This document shows positions 22,572-30,093 of a stretch of DNA of 42,089 nucleotides, in pieces; the first letter of the stretch is position 1; every line of letters begins with the position of its first letter. The stretch spans positions 1 through 42,089 of the forward strand of contig RQYR01000026.1 of NCBI GenBank assembly GCA_003859965.1, read 5' to 3'. Origin of the DNA: Comamonadaceae bacterium OH2545_COT-014 (GTDB taxonomy: Bacteria; Pseudomonadota; Gammaproteobacteria; Burkholderiales; Burkholderiaceae_C). Under the pieces are notes generated by a model that saw only the letters and a program-made list of their open reading frames with translations, ran no database searches and was not told the origin of the DNA. Made by a program: the position numbers and the translations under genes.

Positions 22572-22587
22572 TGGCACAGCAGGTGCA
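22572..22587 (+). promoter_or_regulatory. Sigma-54 (-24/-12) promoter of pilA
   Basis: TGGCACAGCAGGTGCA matches the consensus TGGCAC-N5-TTGCA at all but one position, with the GG (22573-22574) and GC (22585-22586) separated by exactly 10 bases. Transcription would start near 22598, giving a leader of about 70 nt before the pilA ATG. Type IV pilin genes are classically driven by RpoN with PilR. Confidence 0.8.
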
Positions 22588-22669
22588 ACACCTAGGGCGT
22601 GCGGCGACGCACAAACATGTGTCCCGAGTCTCGCAACTCTTTTAACCCTGCTCTCTGAAGGAGAACACC

Positions 22670-23155
22670 ATGAAAGCAATCCAAAAAGGTTTCACCCTGA
22701 TCGAACTGATGATCGTGGTGGCCATCATCGGTATCCTGGCCGCTGTGGCACTGCCCGCTTATCAGGACTACACTGTTCGTGCCAAGGTTTCTGAAATCGT
22801 GCTGGCAGCCTCTTCATGCCGTACGTCAATCACTGAAACCATTCAATCCACGGTGGGCACGACGCTGCCTGCTGCTAACGCTTGGGGTTGCGAAAGCTCG
22901 ACTGCTGCCACAAAATATGTGGCAAAAATTGAAACCAGTAATGCTGGCAAAATTACAATCACTTCAGCAAGCGCATCGGATCTGAAGGATGCGGGGAATA
23001 AAAAAGTGACTTTGCAACCGATGAAAGATGCGACAACCGCTATCGGTAACGGTGATGTGCAAGTGACTGTCTACGGCTGGCGATGCGGCAGCACGGCTGA
23101 TGGTACGGACATGCCGACCAAGTATCTGCCGGGTTCGTGCCGCGGCCAGTTCTAA
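22670..23155 (+). CDS. pilA: Type IV major pilin (prepilin)
   Basis: The 161-residue prepilin has the class IVa leader MKAIQKG and cleavage site G-F followed by the hydrophobic helix [20 protein letters not shown], including Glu5 of the mature form. Four cysteines at 50, 74, 139 and 157 suggest two disulfides, the second closing a C-terminal loop of about 19 residues that ends SCRGQF. Pilin is inserted in the inner membrane, cleaved and methylated by PilD and polymerised into pili. A strong ribosome site (GAAGGAGA) precedes the ATG, and a sigma-54 promoter lies upstream. The C-terminus has no terminal Ser of the sort glycosylated by TfpO in Pseudomonas group I pilins. The downstream third of the gene is lower in GC than the region upstream, marking the start of an AT-rich block. 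Confidence 0.96.
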
Positions 23156-23172
23156 TAAAATTAAAAAACCTC

Positions 23173-23197
23173 AAGCCCCTTTATGGGGCTTTTTTTA
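23173..23197 (+). terminator. Intrinsic terminator after pilA
   Basis: The stem AAGCCCC (23173-23179) and GGGGCTT (23185-23191) closes a 5-base loop and is followed by seven T residues. The last T tract runs directly into the start codon of the next gene at 23197, so read-through would set expression of the downstream genes at a small fraction of pilA. Confidence 0.88.
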
Positions 23198-25131
23198 TGT
23201 CAAAAAAATCTTCAATATTTCAAAGCTGGCCCCTTTGGGGGCTTTATGCAGTTACGCTATTGTGGACTTGGCTGGCCGGTAAAGATATGAACTGGGACCA
23301 GCTCAATTACCATATGTATGCGGCTGATCTGTTGGTTAGAAATCGCTGGGGCCAAGACTATTTCGCAGCCAGTGTCCAATCCTACTTGAATCCAGTTGGA
23401 TATTTGCCTTTCTACGCAATGGTTCGGGCGGAGTGGAATGACCTTTTCATTGCACTGGTCTTGGCTACCATGCATTTTCTTTGCATTGTTGCTGTTTGGT
23501 ATTTGTATCCGCGTCTTGTGCCCTCCCATCTTGCTGGTCACCTCATGCTGCGCACATTAACCTGTGCGCTTGCGTTTATGACCCCTATAGGAATTATGTC
23601 ATGGGGTAGTTCGCCTAATGACTTAATTGGTGCGTCGCTTGTCCTGTGGGCACTCGTTTTTTTGCTTCACCAACGCCCAGCTTCTTTCCGTATGCTAGCA
23701 CTGTGTGGATTGATGTTGGGGGCGGCAGCCGGCCTCAAACTAACCAATGGCACTTTTGCTATAGCATTTCTGCTTCCAATTATTATTTTTAATCAAAAAC
23801 ATGATGGCTCATTTTTAATTGCAAAAAAGATGATTTTCTATGTTTTTGGGGTGGTAGTTGGTTTTTCTCTTTTGCACGGTTACTGGAGTTGGTGTCTGTG
23901 GCGGGAGTTTAAAAACCCATTTTTTCCGTTCTTTAATAAAATATTTGAGTCACCGGATTTTTTGCCGGTTAACTTGCATGATAAGAGATTTTTGGGTGAT
24001 GGTGGTTTGTGGGGGCTTGCGAAGATTCCGTGGGATATGCTAAAGCATCAAGCGATGGTCTATACTGAGGTGATCGCTCCTGATGTTCGGGCAATAGTTT
24101 TGGTTTTTATTATTGCTGTTTTTGCTTATTCGCGTGCGTCCTTAAAGGTTTTGGGTGATGAGAGACGGTTTTCAAGATCGATATCCATTGAGTTGGTGGT
24201 TGTTTCTTCTTTTGCTTTGCTTGCTTATTTGATTTGGGGAATGACATCTCGAATTGGCCGGTATGCAATGCCTCTATGGTTGCTGCTCGGTCCACTTGTT
24301 ATTTTTTTGGCTTCCTTTTTATGGCCTGGGAAAGAGAAAAAAATTGGCCTCTTCGCATCAATTCTATTGATGATTCAGTGCTTCGTGACCTCAAGCTCGG
24401 GGGTTATTCGTTGGGATGGTGTCAATTATAGCGGCCGGTGGTTCGAAGTGGATCTGCCTGCGGAAATTGCGAATGCTCCTGCAACCTTTTTTTCGACGGA
24501 GGAGCAAACCTTATCTTTTATATCTGTATATCTTCATCCAGAATCATCAATGGCAAATATTTTTGGGCAATATGTACAGCCTGCCGGTGAAAAAATAAGA
24601 CCTCGACTGGCTAAGATGATGGATAAAAATAAAATATACTCGATTAGTAAAAGTGTTGATCCGGTGCTCCATGTGGATGTGAGAAATTCATTAAATAGTC
24701 GACTTCGGGCTTATGGTTTGATTATGTCACAAGATGATTGCGTATACGGAATTTTTCATATGGATCGTAAGGAGCCTTCAGTAAGTAATTCGGGTGCTGT
24801 TTATTTGCATTTTTGCCCTCTGGAGCGTTTGAACGGGTTGGAGAAGGAAAACGCTTTTCGGTATGCTTTTAAATACGATGAAATATTTGACCTTGTGGAG
24901 CGAGCCTGTCCTGCTCACTTTGATCCGCCAGGAAGTCAAACGCTTGTGAATGGTGGTGTGCATATAAGATCATATTTCAATAGCGTATCAAAGTTGATAA
25001 TTGAATCCGGTGCTGTTTACGAGTCGGCGTACAGAGCTTTGGCGCCTCAATTTATTAATACGGTCGTGAATATTAAGAATGAAGTACCCATTGTCTGCCC
25101 GCCCATATTAAAAAAGCGTTATATTGAATGA
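23197..25131 (+). CDS. Polytopic membrane glycosyltransferase, GT-C-like; possible pilin-modifying enzyme
   Basis: The 644-residue protein has a first membrane segment at about residues 10-28. A periplasmic loop follows with GKDMNWDQLNYHMYAADLL and AASVQSYLNPVGYLPFY; the acidic residue in the loop after the first helix is typical of GT-C transferases that use polyprenyl-phosphate sugars. Further hydrophobic helices run to about residue 410. A soluble C-terminal domain of about 230 residues has several Cys and no motif I recognise. Pilin-linked GT-C enzymes such as TfpW of Pseudomonas lie just after pilA, which makes a pilin-glycosylating role plausible, but I cannot claim direct homology. The ATG at 23197 sits in the tail of the pilA terminator. 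Codon use is markedly AT-rich compared with the core genes. The next gene begins right at its stop. Confidence 0.65.
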   Translation: MSKKSSIFQSWPLWGLYAVTLLWTWLAGKDMNWDQLNYHMYAADLLVRNRWGQDYFAASVQSYLNPVGYLPFYAMVRAEWNDLFIALVLATMHFLCIVAVWYLYPRLVPSHLAGHLMLRTLTCALAFMTPIGIMSWGSSPNDLIGASLVLWALVFLLHQRPASFRMLALCGLMLGAAAGLKLTNGTFAIAFLLPIIIFNQKHDGSFLIAKKMIFYVFGVVVGFSLLHGYWSWCLWREFKNPFFPFFNKIFESPDFLPVNLHDKRFLGDGGLWGLAKIPWDMLKHQAMVYTEVIAPDVRAIVLVFIIAVFAYSRASLKVLGDERRFSRSISIELVVVSSFALLAYLIWGMTSRIGRYAMPLWLLLGPLVIFLASFLWPGKEKKIGLFASILLMIQCFVTSSSGVIRWDGVNYSGRWFEVDLPAEIANAPATFFSTEEQTLSFISVYLHPESSMANIFGQYVQPAGEKIRPRLAKMMDKNKIYSISKSVDPVLHVDVRNSLNSRLRAYGLIMSQDDCVYGIFHMDRKEPSVSNSGAVYLHFCPLERLNGLEKENAFRYAFKYDEIFDLVERACPAHFDPPGSQTLVNGGVHIRSYFNSVSKLIIESGAVYESAYRALAPQFINTVVNIKNEVPIVCPPILKKRYIE

Positions 25132-25872
25132 GTGCCTCAAATGAAGAAAATTCCATCCAATCCTCAGAATGAAAAGCAAGTCCTGTATGGGGCGCCCGAG
25201 TTTTTGACGCGAACCGGAGAAAGCCTTCCTCGTTATCAAAATTGGATAACTGGCTTGTTTATTTCTCAGGCAAAATCTCTTGGTGCGAAGCGCATCCTTG
25301 ATTTTGGTGCGGGGACGGGCTATTTGGCCAGCTGCTTTCGTGCGCAAACTAAGATTCAGCCGCTTCTGTTGGAGATTGACCCGTCTCTCCGGGCTCGGTG
25401 CATAAGTCAAGGATTCGAAACTTATTCCACTCTGGCTGAGGTGCCAACAGAGCTTGATTTTATTTACAGCTCCAATGTTTTGGAGCACATAGAGAATGAT
25501 CTTGAAATGTTAATAAAGCTGAAGGGGAAGTTGCGAATTGGCGGAAAGATTGCTCTTTATTTGCCTGCATTTAATATTCTGTGGTCAAATATGGATGTGC
25601 GTGTAGGGCACTACCGCCGTTATAATAGAAAAAATTTATCGAGGTTGCTGAGAGGTGCTGGTTATAACGTCGAGTTGTGTCATTATGCGGATTCGCTGGG
25701 ATTTTTCGTGACCTTGCTTTATAAATCTTTGCCTGGACGTGATGGCGAAGCATCTAAAGAATCGTTGCATCTGTATGATAATTATATTTTTCCGTTGTCG
25801 CGCAAGCTTGATGGGGTGGTAAGGAGCTTCGTAGGAAAAAATATTTTTATTGTTGCTCGCAAAGAAGGTTGA
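25132..25872 (+). CDS. Class I SAM-dependent methyltransferase
   Basis: The 246-residue protein has SAM motif I ILDFGAGTGYLAS (about residues 55-67), an acidic residue ending strand 2 (LLEIDPS) and the motif around SNVLEHIEND. The late segment YLPAFNILWSNMDVRVGHYRRYN is typical of methyltransferases found beside GT2 polyprenyl-sugar genes. The substrate is unknown; a lipid-linked sugar or the lipid carrier is a fair guess from context. The start is GTG 25132, directly after the upstream stop at 25131; ATG 25141 is an alternative. It is coupled to the GT2 gene that follows. AT-rich codon use matches the neighbours on both sides. Confidence 0.85.
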   Translation: MPQMKKIPSNPQNEKQVLYGAPEFLTRTGESLPRYQNWITGLFISQAKSLGAKRILDFGAGTGYLASCFRAQTKIQPLLLEIDPSLRARCISQGFETYSTLAEVPTELDFIYSSNVLEHIENDLEMLIKLKGKLRIGGKIALYLPAFNILWSNMDVRVGHYRRYNRKNLSRLLRGAGYNVELCHYADSLGFFVTLLYKSLPGRDGEASKESLHLYDNYIFPLSRKLDGVVRSFVGKNIFIVARKEG

Positions 25873-26876
25873 TGATGATGTGTAGTGATGAAGTGCGTAA
25901 AGATAATTTGGATGGTAAGCCTCATATTGCACTTGTTTTACCATGCCACAACGAAGAAAAAACGGTGGGTTTGGTTATTGATGAGTTTCGGATTGTTTGT
26001 CCAAATTTGAGTTTCCATGTGTTTGATAATAATTCGACTGACAAGACCGCTGATGTGGCTCGCGCACATGGAGCCTTTGTGCATAAGGTCGCCTTTCAGG
26101 GCAAGGGTAATGTTGTTAGAAGAATTTTCGCGGACGTGGAGGCTGATATCTACGTGATGGTGGATGGGGACGCCACGTATGATGCCAGCCAATTAGTTGC
26201 GCATGTCAAAGAAATGATTGATTGCCAAATTGACATGGTTTTGGGCGCCCGTGTAATTGACGTGTCTAGCAATGGTGTCCACTATCGTGTCGGTCATCGC
26301 ATTGGCAACAAAATTCTTACCGCTACTGCTATGATGGTTTTTGGTGGTGGATTTTCTGATATGTTGAGTGGTTATAGAATCTTTTCTCGTAGATACGCAA
26401 AATCATTTGCTGCTCATTCGCACGGATTTGAAACCGAAACGGAGTTAACGATTCATGCTTTGGAACTAAGAATGCCTTGTCTCGAAGTTCCTGTGAAATA
26501 TCGGACGCGACCGCAGGGGTCGCAGAGTAAGCTTTCCACCTATAGGGATGGCGTCCGAATTTTGAGGACTATTTTTAGGCTAATTATGACAGAGAGGCCA
26601 TTTTTTCTTTTCGGCTTAATTTCGATAATGCTTTCTATCCTTTCAATTGTTATTGGTCTGCCAGTTGTTTATGATTATGTGCGGACTGGGTTGGTGCCGC
26701 GTTTGCCTACGGCTGTTTTGTCAATGGGTGTTATGCTGTCTGCGCTTTTGTCGTTTGTTTGTGGAATACTGTTGGATCAGGTTGCTATTGGTCGTCGAGA
26801 AGTCAAGCACTTGTGCTATTTATCCTACCCTGGGTTTGATAATTTTTTGGTTTCTCGTTGTGCGAGGAGTGATTGA
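25872..26876 (+). CDS. Family 2 glycosyltransferase, GtrB/DPM1-like, membrane-anchored
   Basis: The 334-residue enzyme has an N-terminal GT-A fold with HIALVLPCHNEEKTVG, FDNNSTDKT and a metal-binding DGD in MVDGDATYD. LSGYRIFSRR is typical of polyprenyl-phosphate sugar synthases. Two C-terminal membrane helices (about residues 235-258 and 270-295) end in LLDQVAIGRRE, as in GtrB proteins. The expected job is transfer of a nucleotide-sugar unit to undecaprenyl phosphate on the cytoplasmic face, providing the donor used by the GT-C enzyme at 23197. No GtrA-type flippase gene is visible. ATG 25872 overlaps the previous stop by one base and has AGAAGG upstream. The sugar cannot be told from sequence. 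Confidence 0.88.
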   Translation: MMMCSDEVRKDNLDGKPHIALVLPCHNEEKTVGLVIDEFRIVCPNLSFHVFDNNSTDKTADVARAHGAFVHKVAFQGKGNVVRRIFADVEADIYVMVDGDATYDASQLVAHVKEMIDCQIDMVLGARVIDVSSNGVHYRVGHRIGNKILTATAMMVFGGGFSDMLSGYRIFSRRYAKSFAAHSHGFETETELTIHALELRMPCLEVPVKYRTRPQGSQSKLSTYRDGVRILRTIFRLIMTERPFFLFGLISIMLSILSIVIGLPVVYDYVRTGLVPRLPTAVLSMGVMLSALLSFVCGILLDQVAIGRREVKHLCYLSYPGFDNFLVSRCARSD

Positions 26877-27664
26877 TATTTTGGCGATTAATGTTGAATT
26901 GGCGGTTGATTTTTTTGAGATGTTCTAGTTTTTAATGGTGTTTAAAATAAGAAACGTGATCATTGTGTGGTAATTTCTTGAAAATTTAGGAAAAAGGTGT
27001 GGCAGCTATTGCAAGTTGCTGTGCGCCTGGTTGCCCGGGATTTAAGCATCAGCGATGCAAAGCTGTTCGGCATCTCGGTGCGCAGCACCAATAATCTGTG
27101 TTGTGTCTCCGTTATTTCCTTGGCCCAGTATTGCTCCAATCAATTTCTTTCCACTGTCGAGAGTGAGGCCGACGAACATTGCCGCTAATTTGGCCTTGGG
27201 CGTTTCAAAGCAAGCGCGGGCGTGGTGCTGGTTGTAGAAAACTATCGTCTTTGGTCTTCTCAAGCGAAGCGACTACGGTTAATACCGGGAGATTGTCCCG
27301 AATCCCTCTAAAGCCACGCTTTAAGCTATCATTGGAATCGTCAAGGTTGTGCTTCCCCTCAGCAACGTCATTTTCGAACCGATGACTGGTGTGGCTCACA
27401 ATGGGCTGGTTAATCTCGACTTGGAAAAGAGCTTTTGAGTCAATTTCAGCAAAACGGATTTGTTAAAGGCTCCCAGGCACGTCAATAGGGATCGAGTCTT
27501 TCTGGAGTTATGCTCTGGATGTCGGATGGCACATTTTATTGACGTGCATCTTAAGGAGAGCGTAGTTCACACCAACTTCTTGCCTTCGTGACCTTTACAA
27601 AATTCTGCTTAAAATGCTTAGGAGCGATTATTTTTGAGGTATGTTTGTGTACTAGACTCCTCTG
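26877..27664. other. AT-rich, gene-poor stretch with possible gene debris
   Basis: No intact gene is supported. Two overlapping minus-strand frames (27205-27399, 64 aa, and 27042-27263, 73 aa) have protein-like composition and could be one old gene split by a frameshift in the overlap, but I recognise neither. A perfect 11-bp inverted repeat (27477-27487 with 27537-27547) encloses 49 bases. This is consistent with decayed insertion or recombination at the junction of two gene groups. Confidence 0.4.
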
Positions 27665-28423
27665 CTAAAATGAATCAATTGGCAAATATATTACAATATC
27701 GGCGTTCTGATTTTCAATGACCACTGTCCAAAATTCTTTGTCCCGGGCGGTTAGTGGCAAGTAGGCTAACATTTCGATTGGTTTTCCTGTATTGTCTAAG
27801 GATTTTTTAATATAAAAATATTTATCCGGAAACCTTGCGAGAAGATCGCTGACGGGGCGTGCTTCTTTTAAAATGGTGCTTCGTTCGCTTTTGTAGCTTT
27901 TCCATAGGGTTGTCTGTAGGGATAAAGGGAATCCGTTAATTGCGGATATGGTCATTTCTAGTTTTTCTTGATTTTCCATAGGGCGGAGTGCTAATAAAGA
28001 GGGGCCTTCAAATAAATGAGGTCTCCTGGCGAAGGGGGTTCGTGTGTATAAATTTTGGGGTAGCTCTGATTGGTGAATTACTCTGAATCGATCATATTCG
28101 AAGATTGTGTATATTGGTCGTGCATTCCACATGGTCCATAGACCATATGCTAGAGCTAAAGCTTGTATGGTGACAGTAATGCAGATGTCAAAAAAGATTT
28201 CGCGCCTAGTCTTTTTTGGTGTGAATGTGACAAAAGTGATCGCCGGTCCTATAATAAGATTCACTGCCATTGTTAATTCAAAAATCCGCTGCCCTTCGGA
28301 TATTTTTTCATAGGGGAAAGGGTACCAAGCCTTAAGGGCCAAAAGGGAAATTATGCCTGTGGTGATGCTGCTTATCACTAAGCTGGCAATAAATGCGCAT
28401 ATTTTCTTGCGGAAGTGGTGCAT
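27665..28423 (-). CDS. Type IV pilin accessory protein (TfpX/TfpZ family)
   Basis: The 252-residue protein has membrane helices near residues 10-30, 48-68 and 80-98. The family-typical text includes LKAWYPFPYEKISEG, a second helix ending IIGPAITFVTF, TPKKTRREIFFD, ALAYGLWTMWNARP and FEYDRFRVI. In Pseudomonas, TfpX, TfpY and TfpZ are encoded beside particular pilin alleles and raise their surface assembly; FimB of Dichelobacter is similar. Here the gene is on the opposite strand to pilA and over 4 kb away, with the sugar genes between, which is not the usual order. The ribosome site is weak (AAAAAAAAGA). Low GC content matches the rest of the pilin block. The role in assembly is from family knowledge. 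Confidence 0.8.
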   Translation of the reverse strand: MHHFRKKICAFIASLVISSITTGIISLLALKAWYPFPYEKISEGQRIFELTMAVNLIIGPAITFVTFTPKKTRREIFFDICITVTIQALALAYGLWTMWNARPIYTIFEYDRFRVIHQSELPQNLYTRTPFARRPHLFEGPSLLALRPMENQEKLEMTISAINGFPLSLQTTLWKSYKSERSTILKEARPVSDLLARFPDKYFYIKKSLDNTGKPIEMLAYLPLTARDKEFWTVVIENQNADIVIYLPIDSF

Positions 28424-28554
28424 AAATCTTTTTTTTGGGGTAATTGTTACGGACGTGAGGGTAGGGTATTATTTGCGCATAGAGCGCTGCTGTCAATTGT
28501 TGCGTTGATAATTAAAATGAACGCTAGCGCTGGCTCAATATTTTTACTGTTTAC

Positions 28555-30093
28555 ATGATGGCTGGTTTGGCTGGGCTATTAATAGTGGTCTCCTGGCTCT
28601 GGCCCTTCACCTACGGCCCCACGGCCGCCACGTTGCCTTATCTTGCCTCCGCCACGGCGGGGGCGCTGCTGCTGGCGCTGTGGCCGCAGCGCGCGCCGCA
28701 GGGCGGGGCGGCGGTGATGGCGGGGGGCTGGCTGCTGGCGGCTGCGCTGAGCGCGGTGGTGGCGCTTTTGCAGTATTTCAACCTGGAAGGGCCGTTTTTC
28801 CCCTGGTTCAATCAGGCCAGGCCCGGGCAGGCTTTTGGCAACCTGCGGCAGCCGAACCAGCTGGCGTCTTTGCTGGTGATCGGGCTGCTGGCCTTGGGCT
28901 GGTGTGCCCAGCGCCAACGCACGGTGCGGCAAGCGGCGCCGTGGCTGGCGGCCTTGTTGCTGGCGGCGCTGGCGGCCACGGCGTCGCGCGTTGGGGCGGT
29001 GGCGCTGCTGGCGCTGGCGGCCATGGCCGGTTGGTGGGCTTGGCGCGCCGGTCAGGGCCGGCGTGCGCTGGGGTGGCTGGGAGCCGGTTTGGCGCTGTAT
29101 GCCGTGGCCGCGCTGGCGTTGCCCTGGGCGCTGCAGGCGGGCGGCGGCGGCGCTGGGCGTGATTTGCTGGAGCGTTTGCAAAATGCCGAAGGCACTTGCG
29201 GCAGCCGCCTGATTCTTTGGCGCAACGTGCTGCACCTGATCGGGCTGCGGCCGTGGACGGGCTGGGGCTGGGGCGAGCTGGATTACGCCCATTACATCAC
29301 GCTGTATGACGGGCCGCGCTTTTGTCACATTCTGGACCATGCCCACAATTTGCCGCTGCATCTGGCCGTGGAGCTGGGCGTGCCCGTGGCTGTGGCCGCA
29401 TGCGCGGCGCTGGCTTGGCTGGTGTGGCGCGGTCGCCCCTGGGCAGAGCGCGATAGCGCGCGCCAAATGGCTTGGGGGGTGCTGGCCGTGATCGGCATTC
29501 ACAGCCTGGTGGAATATCCGCTGTGGTATGGGCCGTTTCAGATTGCTGCCCTGCTTTGCATCGGCTTGCTGTGGTGCACGCGCCCGCGCACGCAGCCCGC
29601 GCAAGCGGATGAGGAGGTGCCGGGTGGCCGCCGCGCCTCTTGCTGGCGCATGGCGCGGTGGGCGGTGGCGCTGCTGGTGCTGGCGGCCGTGGCTTACACG
29701 GGGTGGGACTATCGCCGCGTGAGCCAGATTTATCTGCCGCCTGAAAAGCGGGCAGCGCCCTACCGCATGGATGCCATGGCACATGCCCGGCAGTCGCGTT
29801 TGTTTGCGGGCGTGGTGCGCTTTGCGGAAGTCACCACGTATCCGGCCACGCGGGAAAACGCTTCGTGGCTGCTGCCTGCGGCGCTCAAGACGTTGCATTT
29901 TTCGCCGGAGCCGCGTGTGGCCATCAAAGTGATTGAGTCCGCCACGCTGCTGGGGCAGGATGCGTTGGCGCTGCAGCATTTGCGGCGGTTCAAGGCCGCC
30001 TTTCCCAAAGCCCATGCGCTATGGCGCGAGGAAAACCAGCGCATGCAGGGTGGCGCGCCGCGCGCTGAGGTGCCGCTACTGGACGCACGCTAA
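28555..30093 (+). CDS. PglL/TfpO-like O-oligosaccharyltransferase (Wzy_C family)
   Basis: The 512-residue membrane protein has about eleven hydrophobic helices. The PglL_A signature region FGNLRQPNQLASLLV is near residue 98. A periplasmic loop carries the catalytic-type HAHNLPLHLAVELGVP (about 262-277), then VEYPLWYGPF, and a soluble C-terminal domain follows. PglL and TfpO enzymes transfer lipid-linked glycans to Ser/Thr of pilins and other exported proteins. Ligases of O-antigen share the fold, but the QPN and VEYPLWYG motifs and the pilin context favour protein glycosylation. GC content jumps sharply here compared with the preceding 5 kb, so this gene may be older chromosomal stock at the edge of the island. 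ATG 28555 or 28558 starts the first helix, with no clear ribosome site. Confidence 0.85.
   Translation: MMAGLAGLLIVVSWLWPFTYGPTAATLPYLASATAGALLLALWPQRAPQGGAAVMAGGWLLAAALSAVVALLQYFNLEGPFFPWFNQARPGQAFGNLRQPNQLASLLVIGLLALGWCAQRQRTVRQAAPWLAALLLAALAATASRVGAVALLALAAMAGWWAWRAGQGRRALGWLGAGLALYAVAALALPWALQAGGGGAGRDLLERLQNAEGTCGSRLILWRNVLHLIGLRPWTGWGWGELDYAHYITLYDGPRFCHILDHAHNLPLHLAVELGVPVAVAACAALAWLVWRGRPWAERDSARQMAWGVLAVIGIHSLVEYPLWYGPFQIAALLCIGLLWCTRPRTQPAQADEEVPGGRRASCWRMARWAVALLVLAAVAYTGWDYRRVSQIYLPPEKRAAPYRMDAMAHARQSRLFAGVVRFAEVTTYPATRENASWLLPAALKTLHFSPEPRVAIKVIESATLLGQDALALQHLRRFKAAFPKAHALWREENQRMQGGAPRAEVPLLDAR

Follow-up and report, generated by a model that had tools for sequence, protein, structure and literature searches.

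We analyzed a 42,089-nucleotide stretch of contig RQYR01000026.1 (assembly GCA_003859965.1) from Comamonadaceae bacterium OH2545_COT-014 (Burkholderiaceae_C), hereafter the window, in which an AT-rich block carries the type IV pilin gene pilA and a gene for a membrane glycosyltransferase of the GT-C superfamily. This enzyme is predicted to transfer a lipid-linked sugar to the pilin, and we consider it likely that the block is a pilin-glycosylation cassette of a Gtr-like three-component type, operating through the pathway proposed below. Gene content, base composition, the predicted fold of the GT-C enzyme, the clade structure of its family, its linkage to pilins, and its co-occurrence with GT2 and GtrA genes are what the analysis shows. 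An earlier note on this DNA had described a self-contained, horizontally acquired cassette that decorates a particular pilin allele; its outline holds, with three amendments: the system is Gtr-like, the present copy does not suffice by itself, and the pairing of pilin and cargo is not strict.

The six-gene set that had been described at pilA was found in full as open frames, in the order pilA, GT-C, class I methyltransferase, GT2, a 788-bp gap, an inverted TfpX/Z gene, and a PglL-type transferase (Table 1). The GT-C, methyltransferase, and GT2 open reading frames (ORFs) abut or overlap one another. The abrupt AT-rich block is real, with a GC content of 0.437 versus 0.665 in the rest of the window and a minimum of 0.632 among 98 overlapping stretches of the same length elsewhere in it, but its start had been placed too far to the right, since pilA lies within the block. 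The GC content of pilA is 0.52, and GC at third codon positions is 0.54 in pilA, 0.41–0.43 in the next three genes, and 0.80 in pglL. The right edge of the block falls ~30 bp inside the PglL-type gene, which is itself GC-rich (0.685).

The GT-C enzyme and its linkage to pilins

The GT-C protein, in a 664-residue reading from position 23137, matched no Pfam and no NCBIfam family at E values up to 0.1. Structure prediction, which had been proposed as a check, returned the fold of lipid-linked-sugar transferases, that is, a multi-helix membrane domain with an extracytoplasmic part as in the GT-C superfamily, with ArnT, Pmt, PglB/OST, and Emb among the best matches. The ranking favours protein O-mannosyltransferases (Pmt4, Pmt1-Pmt2), whose fold the model has, although identity to them is ~10%, the window enzyme has no Pfam match, and its last 100 residues lie outside the structural match; moreover, a common fold says nothing about the acceptor. 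GT-C enzymes have a catalytic acidic residue in the loop that follows their first transmembrane (TM) helix. In the model, such a residue (position 34) follows a helix spanning residues 11–27; it is aspartate in 49 of the 50 rows of the family alignment and glutamate in one, and the window protein keeps the conserved residues of its family. No second GT-C or GT2 match was found in its own genome at an E value of 0.001.

One scan of GTDB genomes yielded 61 related GT-C loci: 27 long-form, 27 short-form, and 7 partial or weak. Forty-nine of these were aligned with the window protein, the other 12 (near-copies, split or partial ORFs, weak matches) being left out. After window position 420, the long form (24 loci and the window) has 216–265 residues with four cysteines that are invariant in all 25 rows, whereas the short form (25 loci) has 108–142 residues and mostly two cysteines; L104, L109, and L142 were classed as long, and L123 and L127 as short, without a measured C-terminus. 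When the extension was excluded, a tree of the core alone placed all long forms on one side of a single branch (Shimodaira-Hasegawa-like approximate likelihood ratio test support 99; a quick method, and the tree is unrooted). Their hosts belong to Comamonadaceae, Sphaerotilaceae, Zoogloeaceae, Azonexaceae, Rhodocyclaceae, Lysobacteraceae, Cellvibrionaceae, and Microbulbiferaceae, plus unplaced metagenome-assembled genomes. A sample of 29 genomes of the genus, several of them incomplete, gave GT-C profile matches in three: the long form in the window's own genome, a short form in G318, and two weak, partial, unclassed matches in G322. The absence of a long form from the matches in the other 28 genomes, together with the foreign composition of the block, supports the horizontal gain that had been suggested.

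Pilins near these enzymes were sought with a profile built from the window PilA and 14 pilins from family loci, all taken from GT-C loci. A pilin lay within 4 kb of the GT-C gene at 24 of the 27 long-form, 2 of the 27 short-form, and none of the 7 partial or weak loci. The contrast was similar among loci with a measured C-terminus (21/24 long, 2/25 short), where at least 4 kb was present on both sides (20/22 and 2/16, many short-form contigs being short), and in a plain motif search within 5 kb (22/27 and 2/27). Fisher's test on the full 27/27 table gives p = 1.1e-9, which overstates the evidence, since all long forms belong to a single clade. The position of the pilin gene varies (upstream in the same orientation as the GT-C gene, downstream in the opposite one, or several genes away), so the link has outlasted rearrangement. 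This linkage and the predicted fold bear out a glycan-modification cassette tied to pilin.

A separate family sample, which has some genomes in common with the GTDB scan, gave a GT-C match in 17 of 299 genomes, the window's own included. Fifteen of the other 16 were examined at locus level, the weak G162 being left out, and pilA was next door or one gene away in 13; the two loci without it are L035, a short form, and L034, which has three of the four cysteines. We also noted that at 8 of the 15 loci (L030, L031, L032, L033, L036, L037, L038, L039) the GT-C is encoded beside pilA by two adjacent ORFs, split near window residue 270–300. All eight C-terminal halves keep R355 and the four cysteines; the N-terminal half was checked for L030 only. 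Such a two-piece GT-C, if conserved, would be unusual.

Sugar-donor genes and competing explanations

The GT2 gene is separated from the GT-C gene only by the methyltransferase gene, and a lipid-sugar synthase role is predicted for its product. It matches dolichol monophosphate mannose synthase (5mlz, E = 1.5e-5) and scores 204.5 bits against TIGR04182 (AglJ), below the cut-off of 325. A GT2-like gene lies within 6 kb at 20 of the 27 long-form loci and is present at 11 of the 27 short-form loci. A GtrA-like gene was found at 14 and 2 of these loci, respectively, the GtrA profile having been seeded mainly from long-form loci; all six GtrA-like proteins tested were over the Pfam cut-off. By these counts, GT2 and GtrA are no rarer beside the long form than beside the short form. 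The L035 locus combines a short-form GT-C with GtrA and a GT2 59% identical to that of the window; L138 has a GT-C, a GT2, and a GtrA-like gene; and a Bartonella plasmid carries a GT-C relative, a GT2, and a GtrA in a row. The two closest long-form relatives, L092 and L096, carry all of pilA, GT-C, methyltransferase, GtrA, and GT2, though not all in one orientation. Among other long-form loci, that of Pseudacidovorax intermedius DSM 21352 (L094) has consecutive pilA, GT-C, and pglL genes, and that of Zoogloea oleivorans Buc (L109) combines GT-C with GT2 and GtrA. The cassette, envisaged earlier as self-contained, resembles a Gtr-like three-component module, but it is not fully self-contained because the gtrA flippase gene, present in sister cassettes, is missing here. 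One GtrA-type gene is found on another contig of the same genome, beside a frame that by eye resembles a GT2.

Methyltransferase relatives also occur beside GT2 and GT-C genes in the non-pilin loci L130 and L133, which suggests the sugar, rather than the pilin, as the probable substrate. Separately, plasmid 2 of Polaromonas sp. JS666 (L180, NC_007950.1, 5033–9202) carries a methyltransferase, a short-form GT-C, a GT2, and a GtrA in a row. This set stands 3' of type IV pilus genes that end in a shufflon PilV, on a conjugative plasmid, and is a set of similar kind beside a different type of pilus; its methyltransferase belongs to the same Pfam family as that of the window, yet has no significant similarity to it.

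We infer the lipid carrier, the sugar, its methylation, the transfer to pilin, the role of the extension, and the exchange mechanism, as follows. On the cytoplasmic face, the GT2 would charge undecaprenyl phosphate with a hexose-type sugar, which the methyltransferase would probably methylate prior to export. A flippase of the GtrA type, for which this genome has a gene on another contig and the sister cassettes have their own, would turn the lipid-sugar to the periplasm, where the GT-C would transfer the sugar to serine or threonine residues of the pilin, the product of the neighbouring gene. The leading candidate for a part that recognises pilin is the long-form extension, which brings two additional cysteines. 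TfpX/Z would aid assembly of the cassette's pilin, and PglL could add a separate, en bloc glycan. The cassette would sit in a slot behind pilA whose contents are traded between strains.

Several observations weigh against this reading. The pilin is taken as the acceptor from linkage, the contrast of 24 versus 2 loci does not represent many independent events given the single long-form clade, and the profile was seeded as described above. Three long-form loci (L105, L106, L111) show no pilin, although L106 has only 566 bp upstream, and two short-form loci (L148, L151) have an adjoining one. A GT2-like gene was not seen at 7 of the 27 long-form loci; at 17 of the other 20, its product is only 24–28% identical to the window's, and it reaches 38–40% in L092, L096, and L121. 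Methyltransferase relatives occur, beside GT-C, at only three long-form loci (L092, L095, L096). No gtrA was found by Pfam among the window's cassette genes, and with a GtrA-like gene at only 2 of the 27 short-form loci, a Gtr ancestry of the long form is not demonstrated. In L148 and L151, both Elusimicrobiales and hence outside Pseudomonadota, the short-form GT-C is directly 3' of the pilin-like gene, possibly an independent association.

Rather than the pilin protein, the GT-C might decorate the oligosaccharide attached by PglL, or its lipid-linked precursor, much as Gtr enzymes act on O antigen. A PglL gene is present in the window locus and within 6 kb at five of the 27 long-form loci (L092, L093, L094, L097, L099), some relatives occur in GT-C/GT2/GtrA loci without a pilin (L035 and the Bartonella plasmid), and O antigen is described as the classical acceptor of GT-C/GT2/GtrA systems (PMC11127046). 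We judge this alternative unlikely: 22 of the 27 long-form loci have no PglL match within 6 kb (divergent ligases could escape, and several flanks are short), compared with a pilin at 24, and the fold ranking points to protein O-mannosyltransferases, with the reservation on acceptors given above. It is more improbable still, to the point that we give it very little weight, that the block came by transfer from a polysaccharide-modification operon, as a fragment that is unrelated to pili and lies beside pilA by chance; while its composition is foreign and 25 of the 27 short-form relatives have no pilin within 4 kb, the window enzyme belongs to the long-form clade, which is pilin-linked through changing gene order and orientation.

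The right half of the cassette and the slot behind pilA

Table 1. Features of the pilA locus in the window, with coordinates and supporting matches.
Feature	Position	Strand	Remarks
AT-rich block	22611..28585		Maximum-likelihood edges
pilA, type IV pilin	22670..23155	+	161 residues, 4 Cys; PF00114 (6.9e-15), PF07963
Terminator-like hairpin	23173..23191	+	Between pilA and the GT-C gene, directly 5' of the GT-C ATG; z = -2.94
GT-C membrane glycosyltransferase, long form	23197..25131	+	644 residues from the ATG after the terminator
C-terminal extension of the long-form clade	24829..25131	+	Residues 545–644; contains the last two of the four invariant Cys
Class I S-adenosylmethionine methyltransferase	25132..25872	+	246 residues; PF13489 (2.2e-12), over cut-off
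GT2, polyprenyl-phosphate-sugar synthase type (GtrB/DPM/AglJ-like)	25869..26876	+	PF00535 over cut-off; ~2 TM helices
Gap without recognisable gene	26877..27664		788 bp, between GT2 and tfpX/Z; short frames only
TfpX/TfpZ-family pilin accessory protein	27665..28423	-	252 residues, inverted; NF041437
Promoter-like site upstream of inverted tfpX/Z	28468..28496	-	11/12 consensus match only
PglL-type O-oligosaccharyltransferase	28555..30093	+	512 residues; PF15864 (PglL_A), PF04932 (Wzy_C), PF11846 (Wzy_C_2), each over cut-off

The window pilA is the sole strong pilin match in its own genome, the five others having E values of 1.5e-9 or weaker. Terminators 3' of pilin genes are described as a probably common means of setting accessory-gene expression (PMC11841053). 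The gap after GT2 is where gtrA follows GT2 in some relatives; no gtrA remnant was detected in it. A search of its own genome returned the gap alone, and neither 149 other genomes of the family nor plasmids gave a match. The TfpX/TfpZ-family protein matches NF041437 (E = 6.3e-47) over residues 8–252 but is inverted and scores 160.2 bits, short of the curated cut-off of 200. Promoter-like sites such as that upstream of it number 13 in the region, with 8.5 expected. The last gene, which had been called PglL/TfpO-like, is PglL-type and not TfpO-type: PMC12645811, which separates PglL, TfpO, TfpM, and PglS, gives PglL_A with Wzy_C_2 as marks of PglL and PglS, not of TfpO or TfpM.

A pglL match is present in 23 of the 29 genus genomes, own included, and pilA lies upstream of pglL at 8 of the 22 genus pglL loci examined. 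Between the two genes stand TfpX/Z (L070, L072, L090), two large AT-rich ORFs (L071), TfpX/Z and a large ORF (L075), or several ORFs (L076); in L073 and L083 nothing was recognised between them, and TfpX/Z comes after pglL. Nineteen further stretches were chosen from the genus pilin matches, as a selection and not the full match list. Of these, L169 lacks a pilin, and L167, L171, L175, and L176 break off too early behind theirs; 13 of the remaining 14, all but L173, have a recognisable accessory or modification gene next to or near the pilin. TfpX/Z occurs in L164, L170, and L174, and with other genes in L158, L159, L160, and L172. Other neighbours are weakly PglL-similar proteins (L159, L162, L168), a relative of the phosphoglycerol transferases that stays below cut-off (L158), a Wzy_C ligase accompanied by a sulfatase-family protein (L163), and many-TM proteins with a GT2 (L160, L165, L166), adjoined in L165 and L166 by a GT4-type gene (domain test for L166 alone). 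Three pilA-like loci, each with its own set, occur in the single genome G309. This variety suggests that the contents of the slot behind pilA are exchanged between strains.

Some of these sets deserve mention in their own right. The G309 loci pair a phosphoglycerol-transferase-like protein with TfpX/Z (L158), a weakly PglL-like protein with TfpX/Z (L159), and a weakly PglL-like protein (L168). In L161 (711–4689), pilA is followed by a many-TM protein, GtrA, and a flavin adenine dinucleotide (FAD) oxidoreductase of the amine-oxidase family, possibly another lipid-sugar pilin set. Four pilA-linked proteins that form a family (L071 8571–10364, L075 9476–11407, L076 3716–5743, L160 6018–7805) have 6–10 predicted TM helices; their membrane part has no Pfam family, and three of the four have weak C-terminal TPR matches. 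We take them to be reminiscent of eukaryotic TMTC O-mannosyltransferases.

The strict pairing of cargo with pilin allele that had been predicted, with alleles swapping together with the cassette genes, is not supported. Twenty-four genus pilins (a set without those of L160 and L168) are 60–93% identical to the window pilin over the first 45 residues and 17–61% over the rest, and the closest past residue 45 (53–61% identical), those of L158, L159, and, by separate comparison, L160, stand with cargo that differs from the window's. In a tree of 46 pilins, built without L160, L168, and L175, the GT-C label needs 8 changes versus a shuffled mean of 15.7, with none of 500 shuffles as low; this clustering is suggestive only, because GT-C-linked pilins were sampled across families and the others from one genus. 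The window pilin is closest (70%) to a Microbulbifer pilin (L137), whose neighbouring long-form GT-C is only 24% identical to the window's; pilin and GT-C evidently change partners.

Known systems and meaning

A PglL gene beside a pilin is already known, and TfpW is the known pilin GT-C. Most of 31 PglL homologues are reported to adjoin possible targets, with a pilin context in species of Polaromonas, Rhodoferax, Acidovorax, Verminephrobacter, and Methylibium, among others (PMC3643930); the window differs in having a second, unrelated glycosylation module between pilA and pglL. TfpW of Pseudomonas aeruginosa group IV is described as a glycosyltransferase that accompanies one pilin allele and glycosylates the pilin it encodes, and the group also has a TfpX-family protein (PMC11841053); TfpW is classed as a GT-C (PMC5836110). 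It adds D-arabinofuranose, and the donor path in P. aeruginosa is assigned to phosphoribosyl-transferase enzymes (PMC11127046). Compared by description only, the window resembles this system in its adjoining pilin and GT-C genes and, with a family match below cut-off, in its TfpX/Z gene, but its donor genes are a GT2 of the GtrB/DPM kind and a methyltransferase, with GtrA in sister loci. Pfam identified no D-arabinofuranose donor genes among the cassette genes, to which this search was confined. The likeness to three-component glycosylation systems (GtrA, GtrB, Gtr), also described in PMC11127046, lies in the GT2 lipid-sugar synthase and GT-C here and the GtrA of sister cassettes and L035; the differences are the pilin linkage, the C-terminal extension, the methyltransferase, the missing gtrA, and an acceptor that is presumably protein. 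No report of a GtrB/GtrA-type system aimed at pilin was found among the literature matches listed (titles and abstract openings, with most subscription journals outside the search), which is weak evidence of novelty.

More speculatively, and with considerable doubt, a distinct, pilin-dedicated O-glycosyltransferase family may have a single origin, in which a cystine-stapled extension that binds type IV pilins was added to a Gtr-type lipid-monosaccharide system. Its later spread through Beta- and Gammaproteobacteria would have made it one of several chemistries (monosaccharide, oligosaccharide, phosphoglycerol-like) that can replace one another and compete for the slot behind pilA, in what would be the equivalent, for pili, of serotype conversion in O antigen.

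TfpO and TfpW are described as enabling P. aeruginosa, through glycosylation of its pilin, to escape pilus-specific phages (PMC11841053). If the pilin-glycosylation reading of the cassette is true, a Gtr-like route to pilin glycosylation would exist in many environmental Beta- and Gammaproteobacteria, and the other modification sets that relatives carry in the slot suggest that bacteria exchange their pilus coating. The pilA slot of the genus would then be a natural collection of pilin-modifying enzymes, and the split between long and short forms would offer a direct handle on what steers a GT-C enzyme to protein.

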